Shown: positions 2,374 through 15,980, counted from the first letter of the stretch. The stretch: 20,571 nucleotides of DNA from a virus (IMGVR_UViG_3300020183_003424:1-20571); one strand, 5' to 3'. Numbers and translations: made by a program. Notes: generated from the sequence alone by a model not told the origin.

Positions 2374-2581
2374 TTTCTCCATTATCTAATTCATCAGTAG
2401 CTAATTCATCAGCCACATGATAAAACAACATTGCAGCTTGTTCTGTACCAAGGGATTGTTTATATCCCCTGGCAGCAGAAGCTAACATTATCGCAAGAAC
2501 TTCCAGATCTTTGCCTCTCTCCCGAGAGTTTTTATAGATTGAATCTAGGATGCTGGTAAGAACTTGGGGACTAAAATTCAT
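2345..2581 (-). CDS. Small conserved-looking protein of unknown function between gp45 and gp44
   Basis: A 78-residue protein starting at ATG 2581, which overlaps the gp45 stop as ATGA; its end overlaps the gp44 start by about 29 bases. This tight packing on both sides argues that it is a real, coupled gene. Longer starts up to 2608 exist but lie inside gp45. The body looks helical (FSPQVLTSILDSIYKNSRERG, then EVLAIMLASAARGY and a helix EQAAMLFYHVADELA) and ends in a strongly acidic, probably flexible tail (DELDNGENDSDIGDEQ). I do not recognise the family. In T4 no gene lies here, because 45 and 44 are adjacent. The position suggests a replisome accessory protein, but nothing in the sequence proves that. 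Confidence 0.75.
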   Translation of the reverse strand: MNFSPQVLTSILDSIYKNSRERGKDLEVLAIMLASAARGYKQSLGTEQAAMLFYHVADELATDELDNGENDSDIGDEQ

Positions 2582-3231
2582 TTCTTTGGGTTTGAACATG
2601 CGACCCAATATTCAACATCGCCAGCCTTTGATTCAAAATAGGCCATACCAGATGTGACCTTCACAGTATAATCACGCGGTAGAAGTTTCATATTCTCAAT
2701 ATCAAATACGGCCTTATAATCTCGGTCTGCATCACCGACGTGATATTCAGTGTTATCGGAGATATCTTCGAGAACATTCGTACCAGAAAGATATGACTTA
2801 CCATCGCGACCGAATAGCAAGATATTTGGTAGCGCAAGCGCAGAGCTAAGTCGCATCACATTCTGCAAAGCTGCATTAGCGATTGTAAATGTGGCTTCTA
2901 CATTTGGCAGCACAATATCCTTCGCAGGTGGATGAGTGACTGTAGCAATCCCACCATGCAATAGCTTTGTGCTTGACGGACCATCGCTGACCACAAGATG
3001 CTTTTCACTAAAATCAAGTGAAGGTGAAGAATATGCACTAATCACCATCAGCAGTCGTGTCAAATCATTGATCGGCGCTTCTGAAGGAAATGATTCCTTC
3101 AGCTTTGCTGAGGCCAGAATAGTCTTTTTCGAATGAACAGTCTTGAGGACGTTACCCGGCTTGATAAGCAGCGATGGATTAATCGCTGCAAAGTTTTTCA
3201 GAATTTCGATAGTCTCAGTTGAAAGCTTCAT
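2578..3231 (-). CDS. 45: Sliding clamp gp45 (DNA polymerase processivity factor)
   Basis: The 217-residue protein begins MKLSTETIEILKNFAAINPS, close to T4 gp45 (MKLSKDTTALLKNFATIN), and is similar in length (228 in T4). T4 gp45 trimers form the ring that tethers the polymerase and, with gp55 and gp33, activate late transcription. Later blocks also follow the T4 pattern, for example FDIENMKLLPRDYTVKV near the C-terminal domain (T4 FIINMANMKMQPGNYKL). The ATG at 3231 follows GAGAGG and a leader of about 20 bases from a very strong sigma70-type promoter at 3260-3288. It heads the replication run 45-orf-44-62-regA. Confidence 0.93.
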   Translation of the reverse strand: MKLSTETIEILKNFAAINPSLLIKPGNVLKTVHSKKTILASAKLKESFPSEAPINDLTRLLMVISAYSSPSLDFSEKHLVVSDGPSSTKLLHGGIATVTHPPAKDIVLPNVEATFTIANAALQNVMRLSSALALPNILLFGRDGKSYLSGTNVLEDISDNTEYHVGDADRDYKAVFDIENMKLLPRDYTVKVTSGMAYFESKAGDVEYWVACSNPKK

Positions 3232-3259: not shown

Positions 3260-3288
3260 ACTATATCAGGTTGTGAGGGGTTTGTCAA
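3260..3288 (-). promoter_or_regulatory. Strong sigma70-type promoter of gp45
   Basis: The minus strand shows TTGACA (3283-3288), a 17-base spacer and TATAGT (3260-3265). The -35 box contains the TGA stop of the upstream glycosyltransferase gene. A dyad, TGATAT-CACT-ATATCA (3253-3268), covers the -10 box and could be an operator. Unlike several other promoters here, it leaves a normal leader with a GAGAGG ribosome site. Confidence 0.85.
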
Positions 3289-4558: not shown

Positions 4559-5704
4559 TCAAAACGGAATCTCGTCGCCTTGCAGGCTCTTGGAATCCGC
4601 CTCAGGAGCGACTTGCTCCGGAGCTTTGGGCAGGGTCGGGTCGACCTTGCGATAGAGGTCGAGGAAAGACTTCTTAGTCTCCTCGTCAAAACGGTTGGTG
4701 CACATCTCGATAGCACGCATACGGTCATCAAACAGCTGGTATGCACGGATGATATGCACAAGGCGGCGAGTCGAGATCACCTCGTCAGATGCACCCTCGG
4801 CGAAAGAGCGACGGATAACGTCTGCCCAAGCCACAAGGTGATCAATATAACCCTGATGATCGTCGGTCAGGTTATCAAACTGAGCCTGGAGGATCTTGGT
4901 CTCGATCTTGGTTGCGGGGTAATCTTGCTCGATGGTGATAGGGAACCGCTCAAGTAGCGCATCATCAAGCATGGAGGCTGCGACATAGCGACCATCATCG
5001 GAGCCGCGACCCTTGGTATTCGCAGTCACAAAGATGTTGAAGCCCTCAGCCGGATGCACGACCTCGCCAGTCTTTTTGACAAAGTAAGGCTTGCCTTCAA
5101 GAATACCTTGCAAGCACATGATCTTGGTCGGGTCAGCACGGTCGGCCTCGTCAAGGAGCATGACTGCACCGAGCTCCATGGCGCGGAGCACAGGACCCTT
5201 GAGGAACTTGGTCTCACCGTCGATCAGACGGAAGCCACCGATCAAGTCGTCCTCGTCTGTCTCGCGTGACATTTGGATGCGTACGATCTGACGACCAGCG
5301 CGGGCGCAAGCCTGCTCGACCATGAAGGTCTTGCCGTTACCAGATAGACCAGAAATAAACACAGGGAAAAACTTGCGCGAGCGGATAATACGCTCAACGT
5401 CTTTGAACTCACCAAAAGGAACGTAGGTCTTGTCCTTGTTTGGGACCATCACATAGTCATGCTCGGACGTCGCATTAGGATCAAACTTCTTGGTTTGACG
5501 AGTCATCATCGGGATGACCTGTGCATATGCGATGGAAGGGATTTGATATTTACCACGGTCAGGAGACCGCGCCGAGTTGAAAAACCAACGCGGCCGAGAC
5601 ATACCAAGCTCATTAGCCAAAGCAAGGATTTGCTTGCGTGTCACGATGGTATTCTCACCAAAGCGTGTCACGGCAGTTTGCAGAAAGGTATCACGATCAT
5701 TCAT
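4559..5704 (-). CDS. cobS: CobS-like AAA+ ATPase (MoxR type)
   Basis: A 381-residue AAA+ ATPase. Residues 1-60 form a separate N-terminal domain (RKQILALANELGMSRPRW) that looks like a small helix-turn-helix fold. The ATPase core has Walker A GLSGNGKT (119-126), Walker B VMLLDEAD (181-188), sensor 1 FVTAN (225-229), arginine finger region LLERF (250-254) and sensor 2 STRR (311-314). This matches the CobS subunit of aerobic cobaltochelatase and the cobS gene common in T4-like cyanophages. CobS works with a VWA partner (CobT), and a CobT-like gene lies directly upstream. The C-terminus is a Pro/Glu-rich tail ending GDEIPF, like the acidic tip of bacterial SSB. ATG 5704 follows GGAG at about 10 bases and a consensus promoter. 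It may be a cobalt chelatase subunit or a MoxR-type remodelling ATPase. Confidence 0.88.
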   Translation of the reverse strand: MNDRDTFLQTAVTRFGENTIVTRKQILALANELGMSRPRWFFNSARSPDRGKYQIPSIAYAQVIPMMTRQTKKFDPNATSEHDYVMVPNKDKTYVPFGEFKDVERIIRSRKFFPVFISGLSGNGKTFMVEQACARAGRQIVRIQMSRETDEDDLIGGFRLIDGETKFLKGPVLRAMELGAVMLLDEADRADPTKIMCLQGILEGKPYFVKKTGEVVHPAEGFNIFVTANTKGRGSDDGRYVAASMLDDALLERFPITIEQDYPATKIETKILQAQFDNLTDDHQGYIDHLVAWADVIRRSFAEGASDEVISTRRLVHIIRAYQLFDDRMRAIEMCTNRFDEETKKSFLDLYRKVDPTLPKAPEQVAPEADSKSLQGDEIPF

Positions 5705-5738
5705 ATCAAAAGGTCTCCATTATGTTTGTGATGTAATT

Positions 5739-5767
5739 ATTATATCAGGTGCGAGACATCTTGTCAA
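5739..5767 (-). promoter_or_regulatory. Consensus sigma70-type promoter of the cobS-like gene
   Basis: TTGACA (5762-5767), a 17-base spacer and TATAAT (5739-5744) match the sigma70 consensus at every position. The -35 box is inside the last codons of the CobT-like gene and the spacer begins at its stop codon. The leader of about 28 bases carries GGAG. The ACCTGATATA stretch around the -10 box is shared with the gp45 promoter. Confidence 0.88.
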
Positions 5768-7967
5768 AGGCAACTTTGCGCGCTTTCCCGGCAATCATGT
5801 CGATAAACTTGGTAAGCATTGCACGGCTTGTGGACCGTTTGGCATTAGCCTTAATGAAGGCTTTGGCTAGCTTACTATTGGTCACCTTGACCTCACCGAA
5901 GTCCTCCATCTCTGCATCCTCGACATGGAGGTTCTTGCCACCACCAATGGCAAAGAACTCGGTCGCGCCAAGTACGCCAGGGATGGATGCAAACTTGTTC
6001 TTACGGAACTCGTTTGAGATGCGTTGCTGGTCAATATATGACTTGCTGTATTCTGAGGCCTCAGAGGGGCCATTAACGATGCGAAAGATGGCTAAGTTGA
6101 CACCCAGGTGAGACCGCATGTTCCGCACAAGAAATCCAGTAATATCAATTGTATTGGTCACAAACTCCTGGTGACGAGTTCGCGAGTCACGCAGCACGGC
6201 ATCGGTATGAAAGTAATCAGTACCGATTATCCGACCATGTGCATCTACTCTATTGACGATATTGGATACATCGGATTCACCATCAGTCAGCAATACAGAG
6301 TGGATGACATCCAGCTTATTCTTGGCGCGGAACTCATCAATAATATGATGCGATAGCACGATCGTCTGGTTTAGAGGAGTCGAGCCAAGCGAAAGGACAT
6401 TGGTATGAAAGAACACATGTTCGTTGTTATAGTCACGGTTGCCGTGACCTGCACCAAACTCGTGCAAAAACTTGCCCATATCAATATATTCACGACGAGA
6501 CATTTTAGTGGTAAACAACTCAAGCAGGCGCACATCGCATTCTCGGACAGCGAGCGTTCGCTCCTTCTGCTTCACCCATTTATTCTTAAACTTGTCGGTA
6601 TTACTGAATGCACGCCAGCTTGACACAAAGCCGTAGACTTCATGGTGAATACCGACGCGGCGGCAAAACTCGACCAGCGAGAGAAGCTGTTGGATTGTGC
6701 CATGCATGTTAGAACCCATCGAACCAGAGAAGTCGATGAACATCACCATGCCGTGGCTTTTGCCCTCAGGCAGAGTCGTCAGGCGATGAAAGATGTCCTC
6801 GGCATAGCGGTATGAGTGTACCTTGTTCGGGTTAATAACACCGGTCTTGGACTCGCGGGCCCGAGAGTATGCGTCAGCGGCCTTCTTCATCTCGAACTCT
6901 TTGACCATGTAAGCCACAGCCTTGTTGTTACGAGACATAAATTCCATATACCGCTTAGTCATATTGGCTTGCATGGTTAAGCCACGCGCTGGACCAGCGC
7001 CGATTGTTACGCTGTTCAAATCGGCATTCAATCCAGTCAAGATGGTTTTGTGATCGATAATAAAATCGCGCCACTCAGCAATCACCGGCACATCGACATA
7101 CGGAATGTCTTTTAAGTGGCGAGAATCGATGTGGTTTTTAGTGATGTTACGCTCCAAGGATTCTTGCGTCTTGGCATCAATATCTTTGTAGTTGAAACCA
7201 CCAGCACCATTGCCATAGGAATCACCATCGTCGCCTTCACCACCGCGACCACCGCGACCACGTCCACGACCCATTCCATCATCAGGAAACAAATCCCACA
7301 TGTCGTCATCATCGCCACCCTCACCCTCACCGAAGGTCAGATTAGATGCCTGCAACATTTCTTCGCGACGATCTTTGGCAAATTCCAGGATCTCACGCGA
7401 TAGCTCGACCACATCCTCAAATGTCGTAGTGGTTTCCATGCGAAGCAGGAATGGCCGCTCGTCATCGGCGAACGGAACGTCCACGACGCTACCGACCTTG
7501 AAGTGGATGTTCAAGCGGTCAATGAATGAATAGGAGTGCAGGTTCTTGCCTGCCATCTCAAAGAAGTTTTGCTCAACCAAATAGCCAGCAGATTCCTGAT
7601 AGTCGGAGCGACCACCCGGAAACTTGGCTTTCATCTTACGGTCGATGCGAGCATCTTCTACCACGTTTACATAGTGGCGCAGGTACTCGTCATCATCCTT
7701 GACGATGGTTTCCCAACCTGTCAATGGCGTAAATAGAGCGTGGCCAGTCTCATGCAGTACCAACATGTGGTACAGCGACTCCTTCATGTCCTTCCACATA
7801 GGAAGGGTCAGGAGTCGGTTCTTGAGGTCAAAAGATGCCGTGGCCGTAGCGCGATGCTCGACCAGAATATCTTCTGTGGCTAAGAGCCGCGCAAAACGAT
7901 CAAGGCCCTTGACTGCCTTAGCCAAGACCTCGGTATTGGGATTGTAGATTTTCTGAGCGTTTGTCAT
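5745..7967 (-). CDS. cobT: CobT-like VWA protein with N-terminal HExxH metallopeptidase-like motif
   Basis: A large protein (740 residues from ATG 7967; a GTG two codons earlier, from which the numbers below are counted, is also in frame). HETGH at 74-78, followed by NVVEDARID (103-111), has the layout of a zinc peptidase: HExxH with a later Glu (E106) as possible third ligand. Residues 215-260 are an acidic and GR-rich linker (GRGRGRGGRGG). The C-terminal half is a VWA domain with a MIDAS site: D414-x-S-G-S418, T532 and D564 (LLTDGE). CobT is the VWA subunit pairing with the AAA+ CobS in cobaltochelatase, and the adjacent cobS-like gene supports a complex. No CobN-like chelatase is in the window. 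The -10 box ends 6 bases before the ATG and no Shine-Dalgarno is seen, so the mRNA is probably leaderless. Confidence 0.85.
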   Translation of the reverse strand: MTNAQKIYNPNTEVLAKAVKGLDRFARLLATEDILVEHRATATASFDLKNRLLTLPMWKDMKESLYHMLVLHETGHALFTPLTGWETIVKDDDEYLRHYVNVVEDARIDRKMKAKFPGGRSDYQESAGYLVEQNFFEMAGKNLHSYSFIDRLNIHFKVGSVVDVPFADDERPFLLRMETTTTFEDVVELSREILEFAKDRREEMLQASNLTFGEGEGGDDDDMWDLFPDDGMGRGRGRGGRGGEGDDGDSYGNGAGGFNYKDIDAKTQESLERNITKNHIDSRHLKDIPYVDVPVIAEWRDFIIDHKTILTGLNADLNSVTIGAGPARGLTMQANMTKRYMEFMSRNNKAVAYMVKEFEMKKAADAYSRARESKTGVINPNKVHSYRYAEDIFHRLTTLPEGKSHGMVMFIDFSGSMGSNMHGTIQQLLSLVEFCRRVGIHHEVYGFVSSWRAFSNTDKFKNKWVKQKERTLAVRECDVRLLELFTTKMSRREYIDMGKFLHEFGAGHGNRDYNNEHVFFHTNVLSLGSTPLNQTIVLSHHIIDEFRAKNKLDVIHSVLLTDGESDVSNIVNRVDAHGRIIGTDYFHTDAVLRDSRTRHQEFVTNTIDITGFLVRNMRSHLGVNLAIFRIVNGPSEASEYSKSYIDQQRISNEFRKNKFASIPGVLGATEFFAIGGGKNLHVEDAEMEDFGEVKVTNSKLAKAFIKANAKRSTSRAMLTKFIDMIAGKARKVAFDKMSRT

Positions 7968-7992
7968 GGGCACATTATACTATGCCCATGAC
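7963..7992. repeat. Perfect 10-bp inverted repeat over the cobT -10 box and start codon
   Basis: Plus strand GTCATGGGCA (7963-7972) and TGCCCATGAC (7983-7992) are exact reverse complements separated by 10 bases that contain the -10 box. The centre-to-centre distance is 20 bp, about two helical turns, as for a dimeric repressor. One arm contains the cobT start codon. It is best explained as an operator; a leaderless transcript would carry only one arm and could not form the hairpin. Confidence 0.8.
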
Positions 7993-8002
7993 CGTTTGTC
8001 AA
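7974..8002 (-). promoter_or_regulatory. Consensus sigma70-type promoter of cobT giving a leaderless mRNA
   Basis: TTGACA (7997-8002), a 17-base spacer and TATAAT (7974-7979) form an exact consensus promoter. Only GTGCCC separates the -10 box from ATG 7967, so transcription should begin at or within a base or two of the start codon. There is no Shine-Dalgarno. The promoter is in the short gap after the CmoA-like gene. Confidence 0.88.
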
Positions 8003-8019: not shown

Positions 8020-8694
8020 TTACTTGATGGCAATAAAGCCAGTAAATGCATGGTTCTGCCAGAAAGAATCCACATGCTCAAAGCCAGCATTAGTTACCAT
8101 ATCAATTAGCTCACTACGGGTATTTGGCTTCATCATGTGGCGCAGGGTCCGCTCCTTGTCCATGATATCATCTGTGGTGAAGGATTCGCGCTTGAAATCA
8201 TAATAGGTGAATGTGCGGATCTCATGAATGCGAGGAGACTCAGCCACAGTTTTTTCTGCAAAGATGAATGCACCGCCTTTGTGCAGGCCATTATAGATGC
8301 AATCAATCACGTCCTGGCGATCACGTTGTGGCATAAACTGTAACGTGAAGATGGATGTGACAAGTGAGCAATTACCAAAATGAAATGATCTGATATCAGT
8401 CTTTTCATAATGTAGATTTGGAATGTTTCTCTCATCTTCATCAAGCACATCATAAAAATCAGGCTCGACTTCGACACCGATATATGATGCTGCAGGTGCA
8501 AATGTATTTTGTGCAATCATCGCCTTAAGCAGCTTACCTGTCGAGCATCCGATGTCAACCACATTAGTATAGTCCTCGACAAAGTATTGCGACATAGACA
8601 GCACGTCATTCCACAAATCAGAATAGTGTCTGATAGACTGATTGATATGATTATCAAAGCCCTCATCGCGAGTGGCAAACGTGAATTTTGTCAT
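8020..8694 (-). CDS. CmoA-like SAM-dependent enzyme (carboxy-SAM synthase family)
   Basis: This 224-residue class I SAM enzyme resembles CmoA along its length. FDNHINQSIRHYSDLWN corresponds to the CmoA start (FDRSIPGYSN), DIGCSTG (47-53) to motif I (DLGCSRG), and SIFTLQFMPQRDRQ to NFTLQFLPPEDRQ. IYNGLHKGGAFIFAEK, YYDFKR and GFEHVDSFWQNHAFTGFIAIK also have clear CmoA equivalents. CmoA converts SAM and prephenate to carboxy-SAM, normally for tRNA wobble uridine cmo5U. The segment DKERTLRHMMKP aligns with the CmoA QKRSMLENV region holding the carboxylate-binding Arg, here shifted by one residue, so the product needs testing. The ATG overlaps the stop of the second cytosine methyltransferase as ATGA behind AAGGAG, so it is coupled to DNA methyltransferases rather than to a CmoB-like gene. 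Confidence 0.8.
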   Translation of the reverse strand: MTKFTFATRDEGFDNHINQSIRHYSDLWNDVLSMSQYFVEDYTNVVDIGCSTGKLLKAMIAQNTFAPAASYIGVEVEPDFYDVLDEDERNIPNLHYEKTDIRSFHFGNCSLVTSIFTLQFMPQRDRQDVIDCIYNGLHKGGAFIFAEKTVAESPRIHEIRTFTYYDFKRESFTTDDIMDKERTLRHMMKPNTRSELIDMVTNAGFEHVDSFWQNHAFTGFIAIK

Positions 8695-9854
8695 GATGTA
8701 ATCTCCTTATATGGTTTCAATATTCTATCATATACTTGATTTGCAATCTCAGCCATTACCTTTGGTGCAACCATTCGACCGATGCGTTCCGCCTTCTGAT
8801 CGAAAGTTCCCGTCAGCTCGTAGTCCTCTGGCAGACCCTGGAGCCGCATTAGCTCCCGAATCGTGAACTTGCGATCCTCGGCCCAATGGAATAGACCCCC
8901 CCCAGACCGCTTTGATCCATTCGCAGTCAGGGTAGGACTTGGCATATCTGCACAGGTACGTATCATGGTGAAATAGTTCTCGTTTGGGTTTAGCTCTTTC
9001 GGAATCTCTGGTGAGCATGGATTAACCCTCTTGATAGGATTCTTAGGTAAGATTGATAGCCAATAACGCTGATTCTCAGAATTGTTCTGAATATAATCTT
9101 TTAGCATCTGTATCTCGTCCATGTCAAGGGCTACGTCTGCTAAGGCCTCGCGCATTGTGATAGTGCGAGATGTTGGCTTAGGTATGATTTCTGTATTCAG
9201 ATTGAACATGTGGAGACCGATTTTATCGGCTACATCTTGGCGAACACAAATAAAGAAAATTCTAGGTCTTTCTTGTGGTACACCAAAATCGCAAGCACTC
9301 AATACCTCATATGTGACAACATAACCAGGAGGAATATTCTCAAATTCTCTGATAAACTCATTGAGCTTGGTCACAGCTTTACCGATTGTTAGGCCGCGTA
9401 CATTTTCCGCGATAATAACTTTAGGTTGAATATCAGTTGCAATACGGATATATTCGAGAAACAAATCCTCGATATTATCTACCTTCTTACCATCACTATA
9501 CAGCTTAGTTTTATTCCAATTCTTGTGGCGCTTACCTGCAAGTGAAAATGCAGAACAAGGCGGCGACCCATCAAGAATGTCAAGCTCACCTTGCTTGACA
9601 CCAACTGCATTCATTAAATCAAATCCAGATAAGTTTTTAATATCACCAGGTATTACCTTGGTATCTGGAAAATTATGTGTATATGTTTTGATAGCTTCTT
9701 CAACAAATTCATTTACACACAGCACCCTACCACCAGCAAGTCGATAACCCATTGATGAGCCACCACCTCCAGCAAATGTGGAGATAACATTGAAACGCTC
9801 GCGAGCCGAAGACTCGCGAACGTCTTGCATGGTATAAGGTTTATATGCGCTCAT
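8691..9854 (-). CDS. C5-cytosine DNA methyltransferase paralogue 2 with altered cofactor pocket
   Basis: A 387-residue C5-cytosine methyltransferase with the usual motif order: motif I FAGGGGSS (27-34), NEF (48-50), motif IV GSPPCSAFS with catalytic C100, motif VI ENV (E150), motif VIII QERPR (194-198), a target-recognition region at about 215-325, and motif X IGRMVAP (358-364). Two cofactor-pocket positions are unusual: the residue after the catalytic Cys is Ser (Gln in M.HhaI, Q82), and the motif X Asn (M.HhaI N304) is Arg, R360. It is a tandem paralogue of the gene just upstream; 73 of the first 100 residues are identical by my count, but the recognition regions differ. ATG 9854 overlaps the upstream stop as ATGA, and its stop overlaps the CmoA-like start. 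A run of eight G's encodes part of S317-G320. Confidence 0.95.
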   Translation of the reverse strand: MSAYKPYTMQDVRESSARERFNVISTFAGGGGSSMGYRLAGGRVLCVNEFVEEAIKTYTHNFPDTKVIPGDIKNLSGFDLMNAVGVKQGELDILDGSPPCSAFSLAGKRHKNWNKTKLYSDGKKVDNIEDLFLEYIRIATDIQPKVIIAENVRGLTIGKAVTKLNEFIREFENIPPGYVVTYEVLSACDFGVPQERPRIFFICVRQDVADKIGLHMFNLNTEIIPKPTSRTITMREALADVALDMDEIQMLKDYIQNNSENQRYWLSILPKNPIKRVNPCSPEIPKELNPNENYFTMIRTCADMPSPTLTANGSKRSGGGLFHWAEDRKFTIRELMRLQGLPEDYELTGTFDQKAERIGRMVAPKVMAEIANQVYDRILKPYKEITS

Positions 9855-10999
9855 GATTTATACGGCTTTAACACATTCTCATAAATGCTGGAAGCAAGTG
9901 CAGCCATCATTTTGGGTGCGACCATTCGACCAATACGTTCAGCTTGCTGATCAAATGCGCCTGTAAGTTGATAGTCATCAGGCAGACCCATTACACGCTT
10001 TAGCTCGGCCACAGTCAGCTTGCGGTGTTTCTCATAATGCAACACACCAGAGACACCGCGCTTCTGACCAGCTTGTGTCACAGTCGGGCTAGGCAAATGC
10101 GGTGCTGGACGAATCATATTGAATAGAGATGCTTTAGGATTTACGTCGCGAAACTCAGGCATTGATGGCTTTGTATGCTTAGAGGGGTTGAAAGGTAACA
10201 TCTCAACCCACTTCTTCTGCCAGCAGTTTTGCACATATTCCTCAAGCATTTTCTCCTCTTCAGGATCATTTACAAGACCATCAAAGGCATCTCTGATAGA
10301 GATATGCTCTGGGGTAATCGGCTGAGGAAAGATCACATGATTTGCATTGAACATATGAATACCAACCTTGTCAGCGACATCATGGCGCACACAGACAAAG
10401 AATGTTCGCTCACGACCTTGCGGTGTACCAAAGTCTGCGGCACTCATAACTTCATATGTAACATGGTATCCAGGTGTGATTGAGCTAAATGCATTGATAA
10501 ATTCATTGAGCTTCTTAGTGGCCTCACCCATGGTGATGCCTTTAACATTTTCAGCTACAATAATCTTGGGTTGAACTTCTTGGGCGATGCGAATATATTC
10601 GAGAAATAGATCCTCGATATTCTCGACCTTCTTACCATCACTATACGATTTTTCTTTATTCCAACCTTTCTCACGCTTACCAGCCACAGAAAAAGCAGAG
10701 CAAGGCGGTGAGCCATCAAGAATGTCAAGTTCACCTGGCTTGAGGCCAGCAGCATCAAGAAAGTCTTTACCTGTCAAAGTTTTGATGTCACCTGGAATGA
10801 TTTTGGTATCCGGAAAATTTGTCGAATAGGTCTTAATGGCTTCTTCAACAAACTCATTGATAGCAATAATCTTTCCGCCCGCGAGTCTGTAACCAGTGGA
10901 GCTACCGCCTCCCCCAGCAAAGGTACTCACTACTGAAAACAGCTCGCGGGCGCTGCTATCTTTAACATCTTGAACAGTGTATGGCTGATATTTTGTCAT
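9851..10999 (-). CDS. C5-cytosine DNA methyltransferase paralogue 1 with altered cofactor pocket
   Basis: A 382-residue paralogue of the following gene. Motif I is FAGGGGSS (27-34), motif IV GSPPCSAFS with catalytic C100 followed by S101, motif VI ENV (E150), motif VIII QGRER (194-198), recognition region about 215-320, and motif X IGRMVAP with R358 in place of the conserved Asn. It should form a covalent intermediate with C6 of cytosine and transfer a group to C5; whether that group is methyl is open because of the changed pocket and the coupled CmoA-like gene. The two paralogues align without gaps for about 220 residues, then diverge, which suggests different target sequences. A sigma70-type promoter ends within a few bases of ATG 10999 and no Shine-Dalgarno is seen, so the transcript is probably leaderless. 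It begins the unit MTase1-MTase2-CmoA-like. Confidence 0.95.
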   Translation of the reverse strand: MTKYQPYTVQDVKDSSARELFSVVSTFAGGGGSSTGYRLAGGKIIAINEFVEEAIKTYSTNFPDTKIIPGDIKTLTGKDFLDAAGLKPGELDILDGSPPCSAFSVAGKREKGWNKEKSYSDGKKVENIEDLFLEYIRIAQEVQPKIIVAENVKGITMGEATKKLNEFINAFSSITPGYHVTYEVMSAADFGTPQGRERTFFVCVRHDVADKVGIHMFNANHVIFPQPITPEHISIRDAFDGLVNDPEEEKMLEEYVQNCWQKKWVEMLPFNPSKHTKPSMPEFRDVNPKASLFNMIRPAPHLPSPTVTQAGQKRGVSGVLHYEKHRKLTVAELKRVMGLPDDYQLTGAFDQQAERIGRMVAPKMMAALASSIYENVLKPYKS

Positions 11000-11037: not shown

Positions 11038-11865
11038 CTATGTGAGAAACCTATCGAGAGTCGGAATAGACTCATCATCTCCCACCCAGTCCCTACACAC
11101 ATCCATCACTCTAATTCTATCTCTGTAGTTTATTCTAGGATTATGTAGTAGACTTTCAAATAGGGTATCAATACCAGCGCCTAGCTGCAAGTTAATATGC
11201 TTTTTGACTTTTCCAATGCGATCAAATTCTGGCTTGAATGCTTCGACAACGTGATGCTTCTGATATGGCTTGTTTAACTGTTGCCAATCCATAGTATAAA
11301 AGTAATCCTTAACCGAGTCGGTCAGATATGGTGTGATAAACTTCTTACCGTTTAAATGTGCAATGCGATTATGCCAGTTATATCCTGCGCGGGAATTGTC
11401 GGAGAAATATGCGTCACGAAATTCATCAAGCTTCTCCTTAGTCTGCGAATAATGTAGCACGGCTTTCTTGCTTATGCCATAGTAACCGTCAGCTGCCCAT
11501 CCACTTAATACCTCTTGCTCCTCTATTTGAGGATAAAGATGCAAAAATGGAAAGCAACATTCAAAGTGTGTTTTTTTCACACATTTGATATGTCGAGCAA
11601 GATAGATGAAATCTTCTTCCAGCTTATCTATTCTAATTTCAATCACTGTACATTTCCAGCCCATGACTTCAGCCGCGTGCATGGCCTTGTCAGAGTCATA
11701 GCTAGTCTGTCCAGATAGTCGAAATGTATAAGCGTGTAATTTCTTACCTAGTCTCTCCGCCGCGAAAGCCACCGATAAACTATCCACCCCACCAGACAGG
11801 AGAATAGCGCATTTATTATCATTAGAGGCTCGTGCCAGCTCATTACAGAGCAGCTTGTCTATCAT
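11038..11865 (-). CDS. Asparagine-synthetase-like PP-loop ATPase without glutaminase domain
   Basis: A 275-residue protein with a PP-loop, LLSGGVDSL (22-30), near the N-terminus and a second block LSGWAADGYYG (120-130) that corresponds to the GEGADELFGG region of AsnB. This places it in the asparagine synthetase C-terminal domain family, which adenylates a carboxylate with ATP and replaces AMP with ammonia. The N-terminal glutaminase domain of AsnB, with its Cys1 nucleophile, is absent, so free ammonia or a partner must provide nitrogen. Several usual AsnB residues are replaced in the second block, so the substrate may not be aspartate. ATG 11865 overlaps the deformylase end by 23 bases. The stop lies 4 bases before the -35 box of the methyltransferase promoter, so it sits directly beside that unit. 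A role in amidating a modified base is an inference. Confidence 0.8.
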   Translation of the reverse strand: MIDKLLCNELARASNDNKCAILLSGGVDSLSVAFAAERLGKKLHAYTFRLSGQTSYDSDKAMHAAEVMGWKCTVIEIRIDKLEEDFIYLARHIKCVKKTHFECCFPFLHLYPQIEEQEVLSGWAADGYYGISKKAVLHYSQTKEKLDEFRDAYFSDNSRAGYNWHNRIAHLNGKKFITPYLTDSVKDYFYTMDWQQLNKPYQKHHVVEAFKPEFDRIGKVKKHINLQLGAGIDTLFESLLHNPRINYRDRIRVMDVCRDWVGDDESIPTLDRFLT

Positions 11866-12370
11866 TCGCTTTTCTCACTCGGTCCATCTTTAGCTTGCGA
11901 CGTTTAGCTTGATCTAGATGATATCTATTGGCCCTATCTGTAAATAGAATACCGTTGAGATGATCGACTTCGTGAAGCGCAACTCTAGCAGTCATACCCT
12001 GAAAATTGTGCGTTTCTGTCTCACCAGTCACGCTAGAATAACGAAGGCGAATAGTGGTAGGTCTTTTGATCTTCAGAAACATACCAGGAAAGGTTGAGCA
12101 TTGTTCCTCATACACCGTAGTATCATCACCTTGATTCACAATCCTTGGATTGAAAACTGGCATAATGCTATTTGGATCTTCTGGATTACCAAAGACAAAT
12201 ACACGAGTCATGATACCAAGCTGCGGTGCAGATAGACCTAAAGTTTTTAGCGTACACATCTCATCCCGCAAAAGATGATATAACTCATAAGCAGGCATGA
12301 TGGGTGAATCAAAATTAAATTCTTTACTTTGAGTCCTCAACAGAGGACTAGTTGGCTTTAGCAAGTCCAT
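11843..12370 (-). CDS. def: Peptide deformylase
   Basis: A 175-residue polypeptide deformylase, which removes the formyl group from the N-terminal Met of new proteins using a metal ion. The three family motifs are present: GLSAPQ (45-50, usual GxGxAAxQ), EEQCS (88-92, usual EGCLS, metal ligand C91) and LHEVDH (132-137, metal ligands H133 and H137, catalytic E134). Motifs 1 and 2 deviate slightly from bacterial enzymes. Many phage deformylases end soon after motif 3; this one keeps a basic C-terminal helix (DQAKRRKLKMDRVRKAN). Phage def genes are known in marine T4-like phages. The start overlaps the fucose synthase end by 23 bases and the stop overlaps the asparagine-synthetase-like start, so expression is coupled. 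A weak internal promoter (12430-12457) may add to its expression. Confidence 0.93.
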   Translation of the reverse strand: MDLLKPTSPLLRTQSKEFNFDSPIMPAYELYHLLRDEMCTLKTLGLSAPQLGIMTRVFVFGNPEDPNSIMPVFNPRIVNQGDDTTVYEEQCSTFPGMFLKIKRPTTIRLRYSSVTGETETHNFQGMTARVALHEVDHLNGILFTDRANRYHLDQAKRRKLKMDRVRKANDRQAAL

Positions 12371-13274
12371 TTACATATTCCTTCACTAGCATTTCAATAC
12401 CAGAATCAAGAGAGATTTTCGGAGACCATTCTATACTCTTAAGATGGGTTATGTCAAGAAGTTTCTTAGGTGTACCATCAGGCTTTGTTGAATCAAATGT
12501 TAAGGTACCATCCCAACCGACGATATCCGCAATCTTGACTGCAAGAATAGCTATCTCAATATCTTCACCGCTACCAATATTCACTACAGGAATATCTAGT
12601 AATTTTTTTGAGGCCTCGACGATAGCATCGGCTGCATCTGTCGTATATAAAAATTCGCGGCGCGGTGTACCAGTTCCCCAGATTGTAACTATTTCTTGTT
12701 TATTAATTCTAGCATCGCAAAATCTACGGATCAAAGCAGACATGACATGCCCACCTTCACCGAAGTTGTCACCTGGACCATATAGATTACACGGCATTAC
12801 AGTCATATAGCTATGACCTTTTTCTCTTGCAAAATTGACAGCTTCCATCGTGGTAAGCTTTGCTATAGCATAACCTCGATTGGTTGGTTCTAATGGTCCA
12901 GAATTTATCATATTTTCGGACATAGGCTGCGCGCAATTACGCGGATAGATGCAAGATGATCCAGCAAATACTAACTTAGGTACATTATAATGCGTGGCCA
13001 CATCAACCACATTCATACCCATCTGTGCATTTCTGAGCAAGAATGTCAATTGATTATCGCGATTATTGATGATACCACCAACATGCCCAGCACAATGATA
13101 GATAGCTTTTGGTTTTAAACCATCAATAACCATAGCTACTTCATCTAGCTTGGTCAGATCACAATCTGCACTACCTAGCGCATGAACGGTAGCATTATCT
13201 TGTCTCAATCTATCTGCTACGGCACGGCCTAGCATACCTGTGCCACCAAATACTACTACATTATCCGATGTCAT
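12348..13274 (-). CDS. fcl: GDP-L-fucose synthase (epimerase/reductase)
   Basis: A 308-residue short-chain dehydrogenase of the GDP-fucose synthase family. It has the NADP-binding GGTGMLG (10-16), the GSSCIYP segment (105-111) with the conserved Ser and Cys, YAIAK (Y135, K139) as catalytic pair, and a His (H176) matching the epimerase His of the E. coli enzyme. It converts GDP-4-keto-6-deoxymannose to GDP-L-fucose with NADPH, the step after GMD, whose gene is directly upstream and overlaps it by 14 bases. GAGG precedes the ATG. The product could feed a phage or host glycosyltransferase acting on lipopolysaccharide, virion proteins or DNA; the window does not say which. Length is close to that of bacterial Fcl (about 320). 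Confidence 0.92.
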   Translation of the reverse strand: MTSDNVVVFGGTGMLGRAVADRLRQDNATVHALGSADCDLTKLDEVAMVIDGLKPKAIYHCAGHVGGIINNRDNQLTFLLRNAQMGMNVVDVATHYNVPKLVFAGSSCIYPRNCAQPMSENMINSGPLEPTNRGYAIAKLTTMEAVNFAREKGHSYMTVMPCNLYGPGDNFGEGGHVMSALIRRFCDARINKQEIVTIWGTGTPRREFLYTTDAADAIVEASKKLLDIPVVNIGSGEDIEIAILAVKIADIVGWDGTLTFDSTKPDGTPKKLLDITHLKSIEWSPKISLDSGIEMLVKEYVNGLAKAN

Positions 13275-14262
13275 GTCGAACCATCTCCTCTATCAATTGT
13301 TCAAACTGAATATTTGGTGTCCACCCAAGTTCCTCTTTTGCTTTTGCAGGAATACCTTGTAGAAAATCAACTTCATTTGGTCGGCGATATTTGTTGTCTG
13401 TCATGACGAGGATATGACCCGTTTTTCGATCAGAAGCAAATTCACCATTACGTGTCTTATGCCAATCAAGACTAATATTAGCACAGTCAAATGCAGTCTC
13501 AATTAAATATCGTACAGACAAAGTTCTACCAGTTGCGATCACATAATCATCTGGAGTTTTCTGTTGCACCATCAAATGCATTGCTTCAACATAATCTTTC
13601 GCATGACCCCAATCACGCAAGGCCTCGAGATTACCAATAATTAATGGGTCCTTTGATCCTTTAGAAATACGAGCGACAGCTTTTGTGACTTTGCGAGTGA
13701 CAAAGGTCTCACCACGACGAGGACTCTCATGATTAAATAAGATACCGCAAGAGATATGCATACCATACGATTTGCGATAATTATCACACAGCCAGTGTGC
13801 ATATAGCTTCGCTGTACCATATGGACTACACGGATGAAATGGAGATTCCTCATCTTGAGGACCAGGAGTTGAACCAAACATCTCTGATGTGCTAGCTTGA
13901 TAGATATGACAATTATCTGCGATGCCTGCTGATCTCACGGCCTCAAGAATTTTTAACATACCAAGACCATCAGCCATCATTGTATATTCTGGCATCTCAA
14001 AGCTAACCATAACATGCGACTGTGCTGCTAGATTATAAATTTCATGTGGTCTAATCTTAGCTATGATGGCAGACATAGATGAGCCGTCAGTTACATCACC
14101 AAAATGTAGCTTTAATTTGTCAAAGATGTGATCAATTCGTCCAGTATTGAATGATGAGGATCGACGAATAATACCGTGAACCTCATATCCTTGACTCAAT
14201 AATAATTCAGCCAGATATGATCCATCTTGACCTGTGATGCCTGTGATAAGGGCCCGCTTCAT
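13261..14262 (-). CDS. gmd: GDP-mannose 4,6-dehydratase
   Basis: A 333-residue enzyme beginning MKRALITGITGQDGSYLAEL, the hallmark GMD N-terminus with the NADP-binding GITGQDG (8-14). The catalytic set STSEMFG (T125, E127) and YGTAK (Y148, K152) is intact, and RRSSSFNTGRIDH (33-45) is the usual NADP phosphate and tetramer loop. It makes GDP-4-keto-6-deoxymannose from GDP-mannose. It is slightly shorter than the E. coli enzyme (373). ATG 14262 overlaps the gp46 stop as ATGA, so the sugar genes are coupled directly to a core recombination gene. GMD and Fcl genes occur in several T4-like marine phages. Confidence 0.95.
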   Translation of the reverse strand: MKRALITGITGQDGSYLAELLLSQGYEVHGIIRRSSSFNTGRIDHIFDKLKLHFGDVTDGSSMSAIIAKIRPHEIYNLAAQSHVMVSFEMPEYTMMADGLGMLKILEAVRSAGIADNCHIYQASTSEMFGSTPGPQDEESPFHPCSPYGTAKLYAHWLCDNYRKSYGMHISCGILFNHESPRRGETFVTRKVTKAVARISKGSKDPLIIGNLEALRDWGHAKDYVEAMHLMVQQKTPDDYVIATGRTLSVRYLIETAFDCANISLDWHKTRNGEFASDRKTGHILVMTDNKYRRPNEVDFLQGIPAKAKEELGWTPNIQFEQLIEEMVRHDIG

Positions 14263-15980
14263 TCTGATTCAGCTCCAACTATGCGAGAGAAGTTTTTATG
14301 CTTCTCAAATCGCAATATATTTTTAAACTTGTCTTGAAGAATATCACCCTTATGAGATATGATGAATGTATTGGTATTATCTAATGTCTGCATAAGCTTC
14401 AAAAATTCATCACATCCATTGGTATCAAGAGAGGCATCAAAAACTTCATCAAGTATGAGTAGGTTTGTGCTGGCGCTATTCTTCATCTTAGCGATGGCGC
14501 GCCAGGTAAATAACAGTGCAAGGTCGATACGCATTTTCTCACCCTCGCTAAATGATTCATATGTAAAGTCATCACGATGGCGCGATAGAATTTTCTCCTC
14601 AAATGATTCATTCAAATCAAACTTGACAAAGAAATCCATCGCGGCCAAATATTTGTTGACAAGATTATTGATGATAGGAATATACTGTTTAATAATCCTA
14701 GATTTGATACCAGAGTCGCGCAAGATTACTGTTGCAATCTCAAGCAATTCTTTTTGTCTTAGTGCATCAATCTTTTTTGTATTTGTGGCCTTAAGTCTGA
14801 GCGTCAAATCTTCTGTAACATTCAAATCAGATTTTGTTTGTGGCTTAGAAAGGTCTGCAATTTGACGCAGTAATGTCTTAATCTCACGACGATCTGCTGT
14901 GATAGATTGAACCACTGTCGTACTTTTCATATGCAATTTATCTACAGATTTTAGCTTATCATTTGTCGATTTGATAATTTCATCAAGCAAAGATATTTTA
15001 CCAGTAAGTTTTGTCAATGCTTCATCTAGATCGCTAATATTCTTTTTCTTTGATTCAATTTTATCAAGTTTAAATGTTTCACTAATAGTCTGACTACATG
15101 TTGAGCAAGTATCATTATCGATATAAAATTGCACTACACGATTGGCCTTGCTGCGCTTTTGATCAATAGACTTTTCAAGCTCACGGAGCTTAGTCATATT
15201 GTCGCGCAGGTCAGTAATATCTGGTATATCTGATGTTATCTTTGTAATTTCATCGGATATCTCAACATATTTTAATTCTTGTTTTTCAACGGATTTTTGC
15301 AATATTTCAATATTAGCATTTATCTTTTCGATAGCATTAATACGAACCTGCTCATCATATTCATCGCGAGCTTTCTGTACAGATATCATATCTTCGATAG
15401 AAGATAATTCTTTATCTAGAGACACAATCTCATGTTTATTATTGCTGACACGCTCTTTCAGAAGCGAAGACATCGTGGAAAACATGCGAATATCCAACAG
15501 ATCTTCGATTACCTCACGACGAATCGAGGTCGATAACTGCATGAATGGTAAGAATGAAGCTGAACCAAGTATTACAATCTGTGTAAATGATTTTATATTC
15601 AGACGAAGAATATTACGCTCAAGCATTTCCTGCTGATCTCGTGCAGCAGCAAGCTGATCAAGCATCATACCGTCACGATAAATCTCAAATACATTTGGCT
15701 TGATACCGCGGCGCACCATATAAGATGCGCCACCTACCTTAAACTCAATCTCAACCATACCATCTCTCAGGTTGATTGAATTGAGTAGCTGATCTTTCTT
15801 GATCTTACGAAACGGCTTACCAAACAGACCAAAACATAGTGCATCCAGAATAGTTGACTTACCAGCGCCATTAGATCCAACGATTAATGTATTTGGTGAT
15901 AAATTAAATTGAACTTCTGTGAACGCATTACCTGTTGATAGCAGGTTTTTCCAACGCACCTTCTCAAAATGAATAGCCAT
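14259..15980 (-). CDS. 46: Recombination endonuclease subunit gp46 (Rad50-like)
   Basis: A 573-residue Rad50/SbcC-type ATPase, close in size to T4 gp46 (560). Walker A is GSNGAGKST (35-43). Long coiled coils flank a zinc-hook CSTC (C292, C295). The ABC signature is FSEGEKMRID (477-485) and Walker B is LLILDEVFD (507-515), followed by the H-loop IISHKGD. With gp47 it resects DNA ends for recombination-dependent replication and helps degrade host DNA. The start overlaps the gp47 stop by one base, and the stop overlaps gmd as ATGA. The region is AT-rich compared with cobS/cobT. Confidence 0.96.
   Translation of the reverse strand: MAIHFEKVRWKNLLSTGNAFTEVQFNLSPNTLIVGSNGAGKSTILDALCFGLFGKPFRKIKKDQLLNSINLRDGMVEIEFKVGGASYMVRRGIKPNVFEIYRDGMMLDQLAAARDQQEMLERNILRLNIKSFTQIVILGSASFLPFMQLSTSIRREVIEDLLDIRMFSTMSSLLKERVSNNKHEIVSLDKELSSIEDMISVQKARDEYDEQVRINAIEKINANIEILQKSVEKQELKYVEISDEITKITSDIPDITDLRDNMTKLRELEKSIDQKRSKANRVVQFYIDNDTCSTCSQTISETFKLDKIESKKKNISDLDEALTKLTGKISLLDEIIKSTNDKLKSVDKLHMKSTTVVQSITADRREIKTLLRQIADLSKPQTKSDLNVTEDLTLRLKATNTKKIDALRQKELLEIATVILRDSGIKSRIIKQYIPIINNLVNKYLAAMDFFVKFDLNESFEEKILSRHRDDFTYESFSEGEKMRIDLALLFTWRAIAKMKNSASTNLLILDEVFDASLDTNGCDEFLKLMQTLDNTNTFIISHKGDILQDKFKNILRFEKHKNFSRIVGAESE

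Follow-up and report, generated by a model that had tools for sequence, protein, structure and literature searches.

The window analysed here, a linear virus fragment of 20,571 bases (20.6 kb), has the gene content of a T4-superfamily phage, with the main genes all on the minus strand. An AAA+ gene and a gene for a von Willebrand factor A (VWA) protein had been predicted side by side in it from the sequence, and both ORFs are present: a MoxR/CobS-class AAA+ ATPase gene (4559–5704; 381 aa) and a zincin-VWA gene (5745–7967; 740 aa from the ATG at 7967). Both are on the minus strand, as are the features of the two genes and their promoters described below. The pair lies between gp46 (14259–15980) and the sliding clamp gene gp45 (2578–3231), in the order gp46, VWA, AAA+, gp45 with other genes interspersed. 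The gene identities were established by comparing gp46 with phage records and by synteny with the annotated genomes of HTVC008M and S-PM2. Beside the clamp genes gp45 and gp44, the window encodes a gp62-like ORF, a RegA-like ORF, gp46/47 and a UvsW-like helicase. The gp46 protein shares at most 46% identity with any isolate, and the lineage of the window is thus one without a closely related isolate. Elsewhere, we observed a ferritin-like (Dps-type) protein at 167–616 (PF00210, E 1.5e-15) and two similar neighbouring C5 cytosine DNA methylase genes at 8691–10999 (PF00145, E 7.7e-57 and 3.5e-57), beside which no restriction gene was seen. Between the methylases and gp46 (11038–14262) are asparagine-synthase-like, peptide deformylase, epimerase and GDP-mannose dehydratase genes.

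The VWA protein matched phrog_459 ('peptidase') over most of its length in a profile search (E 2.7e-170), and relatives were found in 463 of 50,697 phage records, the same number being obtained with the N-terminal domain alone as the query. These records are mostly cyanophages, together with phages of Pelagibacter, Stenotrophomonas, Ochrobactrum and Pseudoalteromonas. Isolates usually carry the protein under the annotation 'peptidase', not CobT, so the original statement that the pair is usually read as CobS/CobT does not hold for this member. In cyanophage S-CREM2, which was reported to lack cobS (PMC10665884), a VWA relative (OR473000, 31035–32588) is annotated as 'ribosome assembly protein'.

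Four segments were distinguished in the protein. An AlphaFold2 model and fold matches delimit a zincin-like domain at the N-terminus (approximately residues 20–212; 7332–7910), which is followed by a low-complexity linker rich in acidic residues and glycine (approximately residues 212–262; 7182–7334), recognised from its sequence and from pLDDT values below 50 over residues 212–256. Then come a long helix and a conserved YMVKEFEMKKA...TGVINPNK segment (residues 327–402; 6762–6989) at the position of the NorD/CobT 'finger', and finally the VWA domain (residues 403–726; 5790–6761), whose MIDAS residues (D412-x-S414-x-S416, T530 and D562) are invariant among 52 aligned relatives. In the same alignment Y353–M360, A364 and G376 of the finger-position segment are invariant; the segment aligns with EGILDAGRL of CobT and falls inside the structural match to NorD. 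By analogy, the location of this conserved helix segment suggests that a finger of the VWA protein may enter the AAA+ ring. The full-length model reached a pLDDT of 75, and its VWA half matched the NorD VWA domain and the midasin/Rea1 MIDAS domain (Z approximately 14–15, VIA-align). Searches of PDB sequences gave low-complexity matches only, whether the query was the full-length VWA protein or a profile built from it.

The AAA+ protein belongs to PF07728 (E 9.3e-21) and matched phrog_249 ('CobS') over most of its length (E 6.9e-104, profile search). Its Walker A motif GLSGNGKT (residues 119–126; 5327–5350) is conserved in 126 distinct sequences, with K125 present in 99% of them, and the Walker B pair D185-E186 (5147–5152) in all 126. 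Among PDB sequences midasin was the best match, and CobS (E 3.5e-18) and NorQ were also matched. With intact Walker motifs, an intact MIDAS and adjacent genes, the two proteins have the make-up of a MoxR AAA+/VWA co-chaperone system.

The N-terminal domain of the VWA protein carries HETGH at residues 72–76 (7740–7754), comprising two predicted zinc-ligand histidines and a predicted catalytic glutamate, and E104-D105-x-R107 in the following helix (7647–7658), where E104 is predicted to supply the third zinc ligand. The original prediction had recognised HETGH and NVVEDARID as the layout of a zinc metallopeptidase, which the conservation of the motif residues bears out; its numbering (H74, H78 and E106) was counted from an upstream GTG, and with the ATG as the first codon the motif residues are H72, E73, H76 and E104. 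The in-frame GTG (7973) directly adjoins the –10 box, and a start there is unlikely. A profile alignment of the N-domain shows no exception at H72, E73, H76, E104, D105 or R107 among 131 distinct viral relatives, and in the smaller alignment of 52 N101 is invariant as well. HExxH alone would occur by chance in a few per cent of proteins of such length, by our own estimate. Conserved HExxH with a downstream glutamate, the mark of gluzincins, is hence a property of the phage family. An apparent loss of the catalytic glutamate in some relatives (HLVGH, HFIGH) was an artefact of pattern matching to the overlapping motif LVGHEVGH and was refuted by the profile alignment.

Because the VWA domain dominates a fold search with the whole model, the N-domain was modelled separately with AlphaFold2. 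The model has a mean pLDDT of 88.5 and places HExxH in helix 63–79 and E104 in helix 96–115. The top Foldseek matches were selecase, jannalysin, abylysin and ArdC (best E 0.06). After realignment the matches comprised ArdC, BlaR1, selecase, minigluzincins, IrrE, an M48-like peptidase, a DNA-protein-crosslink protease and Wss1, with Z from 6.5 to 4.3, values under the level of the tool for a clear match. Nearly all of the structural matches are HExxH zinc metallopeptidases (M1 included); one weak match, 8s5f, is an HExxH oxygenase. A profile search against PDB sequences placed projannalysin first, aligned through HExxH, at an E value of 0.026. The minigluzincins jannalysin and selecase, which share HExxH plus a glutamate helix with the phage domain, are thus its top fold and profile matches, with weak similarity, and are themselves stand-alone small peptidases. 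Judged from sequence and model, HExxH plus the downstream glutamate is a genuine, invariant zincin layout in a predicted zincin-like fold, since the structural list, for all its modest Z values, is consistent with the invariant motif. We infer that the N-domain binds zinc and that the pair is proteolytic. HExxH domains can hold a metal without peptidase activity, which counts against a protease; E73, however, is invariant though it is no zinc ligand, which points to catalysis more than to a metal with a structural role only.

Both genes have their own perfect sigma-70-type promoter, as originally predicted, each matching TTGACA-17-TATAAT at 12 of 12 positions. That of the AAA+ gene (5739–5767) has its –35 box in the 3′-terminal VWA coding sequence; that of the VWA gene (7974–8002) has a –10 box ending 6 nt upstream of the ATG. 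Transcription should hence begin at or beside the start codon, and the VWA mRNA is predicted to be leaderless. The window holds 10 such sites at two mismatches or fewer against 3.7 expected, and a further strong promoter (11/12) was observed at 3260–3288, upstream of gp45. Six close relatives likewise have a perfect promoter upstream of their VWA gene. Around the VWA start codon, and taking in the –10 box, lies a near-perfect 30-bp palindrome (7963–7992, strandless). The promoter and start layout is common to five close relatives, with arms that are paired and in some of them changed in sequence; in L002, L005 and L006 the arms still pair with a different sequence. T4 has late genes whose start is covered by a hairpin in read-through RNA, and the palindrome over the VWA start codon (7963–8002 with the promoter) resembles that arrangement.

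The adjacency of the VWA and AAA+ genes between gp46 and gp45 recurs in relatives. Of 135 viral loci that contain the VWA gene, 120 carry an AAA+ gene on its strand; in 13 of the remaining 15 the contig ends less than 500 bases downstream (488 bases in one), and in two (L086 and L169) the contig continues beyond 500 bases with no same-strand AAA+ gene. The order gp46-VWA-AAA-gp45-gp44 was found in 31 loci. T4-like cyanophages have the same two families in the same order between gp46 and gp45, and the window protein shares about 30–37% identity with isolates. The phrog_459/phrog_249 family is already known, and the pair of the window is a further member. Phages that infect cyanobacteria, SAR11 or Stenotrophomonas carry the pair, and its position among the replication genes is constant. 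For Stenotrophomonas phage DLP6, CobS was reported as one of only 6 of 25 cyanophage accessory core genes kept (PMC5349666), and we found that DLP6 also encodes a relative of the VWA protein. The fixed place in the gp46–gp45 block together with retention in DLP6 favours a role in the phage's own cycle, and the AAA+/VWA pair looks like a core phage function.

A similar architecture has been described in jumbo phages, where a MoxR AAA+ gene adjoins one whose vWA product has a metallopeptidase domain at its N-terminus, and virion assembly with peptidolytic processing was proposed for that pair (Iyer et al., 2021; PMC7824862). These phages form a different group, and the phrog_459/249 family is not named alongside in the passage that describes the pair (PMC7824862). 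Atu_ph07 was considered a possible origin of the pair described in jumbo phages and rejected, as the accessions differ and no relative was found. NorQ/NorD and midasin (Rea1) resemble the phage pair in the VWA half and in the sequence of the AAA+ protein; no zincin site is described for NorD or midasin, and in midasin the ring and the MIDAS are parts of a single chain.

CobS/CobT likewise consists of an AAA+ protein and a VWA partner. The AAA+ protein scored 63.5 bits against the CobS model TIGR01650, well under the cutoff of 558.6, and falls short of a CobS by this measure; neither the VWA protein nor any of its 52 relatives matched the CobT family PF06213, and PF11775 was matched weakly in 2 of the 52. 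HExxH is present in none of 25 alphaproteobacterial CobT proteins, a comparison that the original prediction had proposed. The ExxR is kept, and in 16 diverse CobT proteins this ExxR, following the HExxH position, is the sole invariant element of the site. A survey of the CobT family in 299 genomes of the same phylum revealed divergent bacterial members with HExxH and EDxRIE. Profiles of these bacterial zincin-VWA proteins matched the phage N-domain (98% probability, E 2.7e-14; 99%, E 1.4e-18) and, nearly over its full length, CobT (99.8%, E 1.6e-29), whereas the phage N-domain and CobT, when their profiles were compared directly, gave no significant match (0.4% probability). The relation of the phage protein to CobT is visible because these intermediates bridge the two. 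Judging by these profiles, the kinship of the phage pair with CobST is distant and not one of orthology, and the simplest account would be that CobT lost the HExxH site. Five of the bacterial CobT-family proteins (L215, L220, L221, L222 and L223) keep HExxH and EDxRIE intact; for three of them the stretch examined has no adjoining AAA+ gene and the preceding ORFs share an SGRK/SGYR motif. The five proteins may lie on mobile elements.

A CobST role has been proposed for tailed viruses (PMC8651126), by which the pair would power cobalt insertion by the CobN of the host (on its own or together with Mg-chelatase parts) and thereby increase the supply of cobalamin. The distant homology to CobT through the bacterial zincin-VWA proteins and that to CobS speak for it. 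So do the cyanobacterial genomes G006 and G007, in which CobN-family genes are present and CobT is absent; there a partner slot would be vacant, and for cyanophages a chelatase role is conceivable. The sequence comparisons point the other way, as the AAA+ protein is nearest to midasin in the PDB and the VWA protein retains the zincin site that CobT is missing. In agreement with the original prediction no CobN-type ORF occurs in the 20.6-kb window, a fragment in which absence proves little, and CobN is also missing from three complete related phages and from the viral VWA loci examined. The pair is carried by pelagiphage HTVC008M, whose SAR11 host clade has been described as B12-auxotrophic (PMC9296465), again at odds with a chelatase. 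Related phages encode a two-subunit ribonucleotide reductase (PMC7029224), a further point against it. On balance the chelatase case is weak, and we consider that role very unlikely. As for the enzyme just named, the two-subunit class does not need B12.

If the pair remodels proteins, its metal could instead serve structure or substrate docking without any cleavage, as in a metal-stabilised chaperone working like NorQD or midasin. The nearest characterised systems, NorQD, midasin and CobST, remodel without cutting, the N-domains of CobT and NorD function without a peptidase (PMC13036017), and the VWA and AAA+ parts of the phage pair are complete for remodelling; yet a structural metal site would not need the general-base glutamate E73, invariant in all 131 relatives, and we judge such a chaperone somewhat unlikely. 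Another candidate, put forward in the original prediction, is a machine that remodels or cleaves a specific host protein during takeover. Its remodelling or cutting part stands as the better reading, given the zincin layout, the lack of HExxH in CobT and the weak chelatase case, and the zincin site and the strong host-type promoters would suit such a takeover function. ArdC and IrrE, both among the structural matches of the N-domain, have roles in conflict or regulation in the systems they come from. Nothing that we found points to a host target, however, and the VWA protein matched no defence-system model. Host-directed phage genes are usually patchy, whereas this pair is kept, with its position among the replication genes fixed, in phages infecting Stenotrophomonas, SAR11 and cyanobacteria; a phage-internal role fits its conservation in the gp46–gp45 block across unrelated hosts at least as well. 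By the same reasoning, Iyer et al. preferred virion assembly in their account of the jumbo-phage pair (PMC7824862), and a host-directed protease appears unlikely to us.

We therefore favour, with moderate confidence, an ATP-driven MoxR AAA+/VWA remodelling machine with a metallopeptidase-type domain, whose substrate is most likely cut and which serves a core phage function, not cobalamin synthesis. Its observed basis is the domain make-up, the invariance of the metal-site and MIDAS residues, the pairing, the synteny and the lack of HExxH in CobT. The mechanism is drawn by analogy with NorQD, which offers a structural precedent for the ring, the finger and the movement of the N-domain (PMC13036017). 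The AAA+ protein would form the ring motor, to which the VWA domain and finger would couple, and the MIDAS site would grip a substrate peptide. ATP hydrolysis could then shift the VWA domain relative to the N-terminal zincin domain across the flexible acidic linker, and the substrate would be remodelled and most likely cut, as the peptidase-type site of the N-domain makes cutting likely. Within the phage lineage the machine might act in assembly or in protein clearing during the DNA phase; the clearing of proteins from DNA is speculation that the position among replication genes allows.

Phage cobS is widely counted as an auxiliary metabolic gene for vitamin B12 and has served as a marker of marine myoviruses (PMC9983427). 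Of the VWA partner, one published account holds that CobT was 'mistakenly called a peptidase' (PMC8651126), and another, in its description of jumbo phages, speaks of a 'vWA protein with a metallopeptidase domain' (PMC7824862). Our results suggest that both are half right, in that the protein belongs to the CobT superfamily and yet has kept a metallopeptidase site that CobT lost or lacks. It is a tentative possibility that an AAA+/VWA metalloprotease is a core function in a large group of tailed phages and that CobT descended by loss of the active site, in which case the chelatase annotation has the history backwards. If our preferred reading is true, many metagenomic claims of viral B12 synthesis would need revision, and a core phage machine would become testable with a single point mutation, E73 being the one residue that separates the conflicting published readings.
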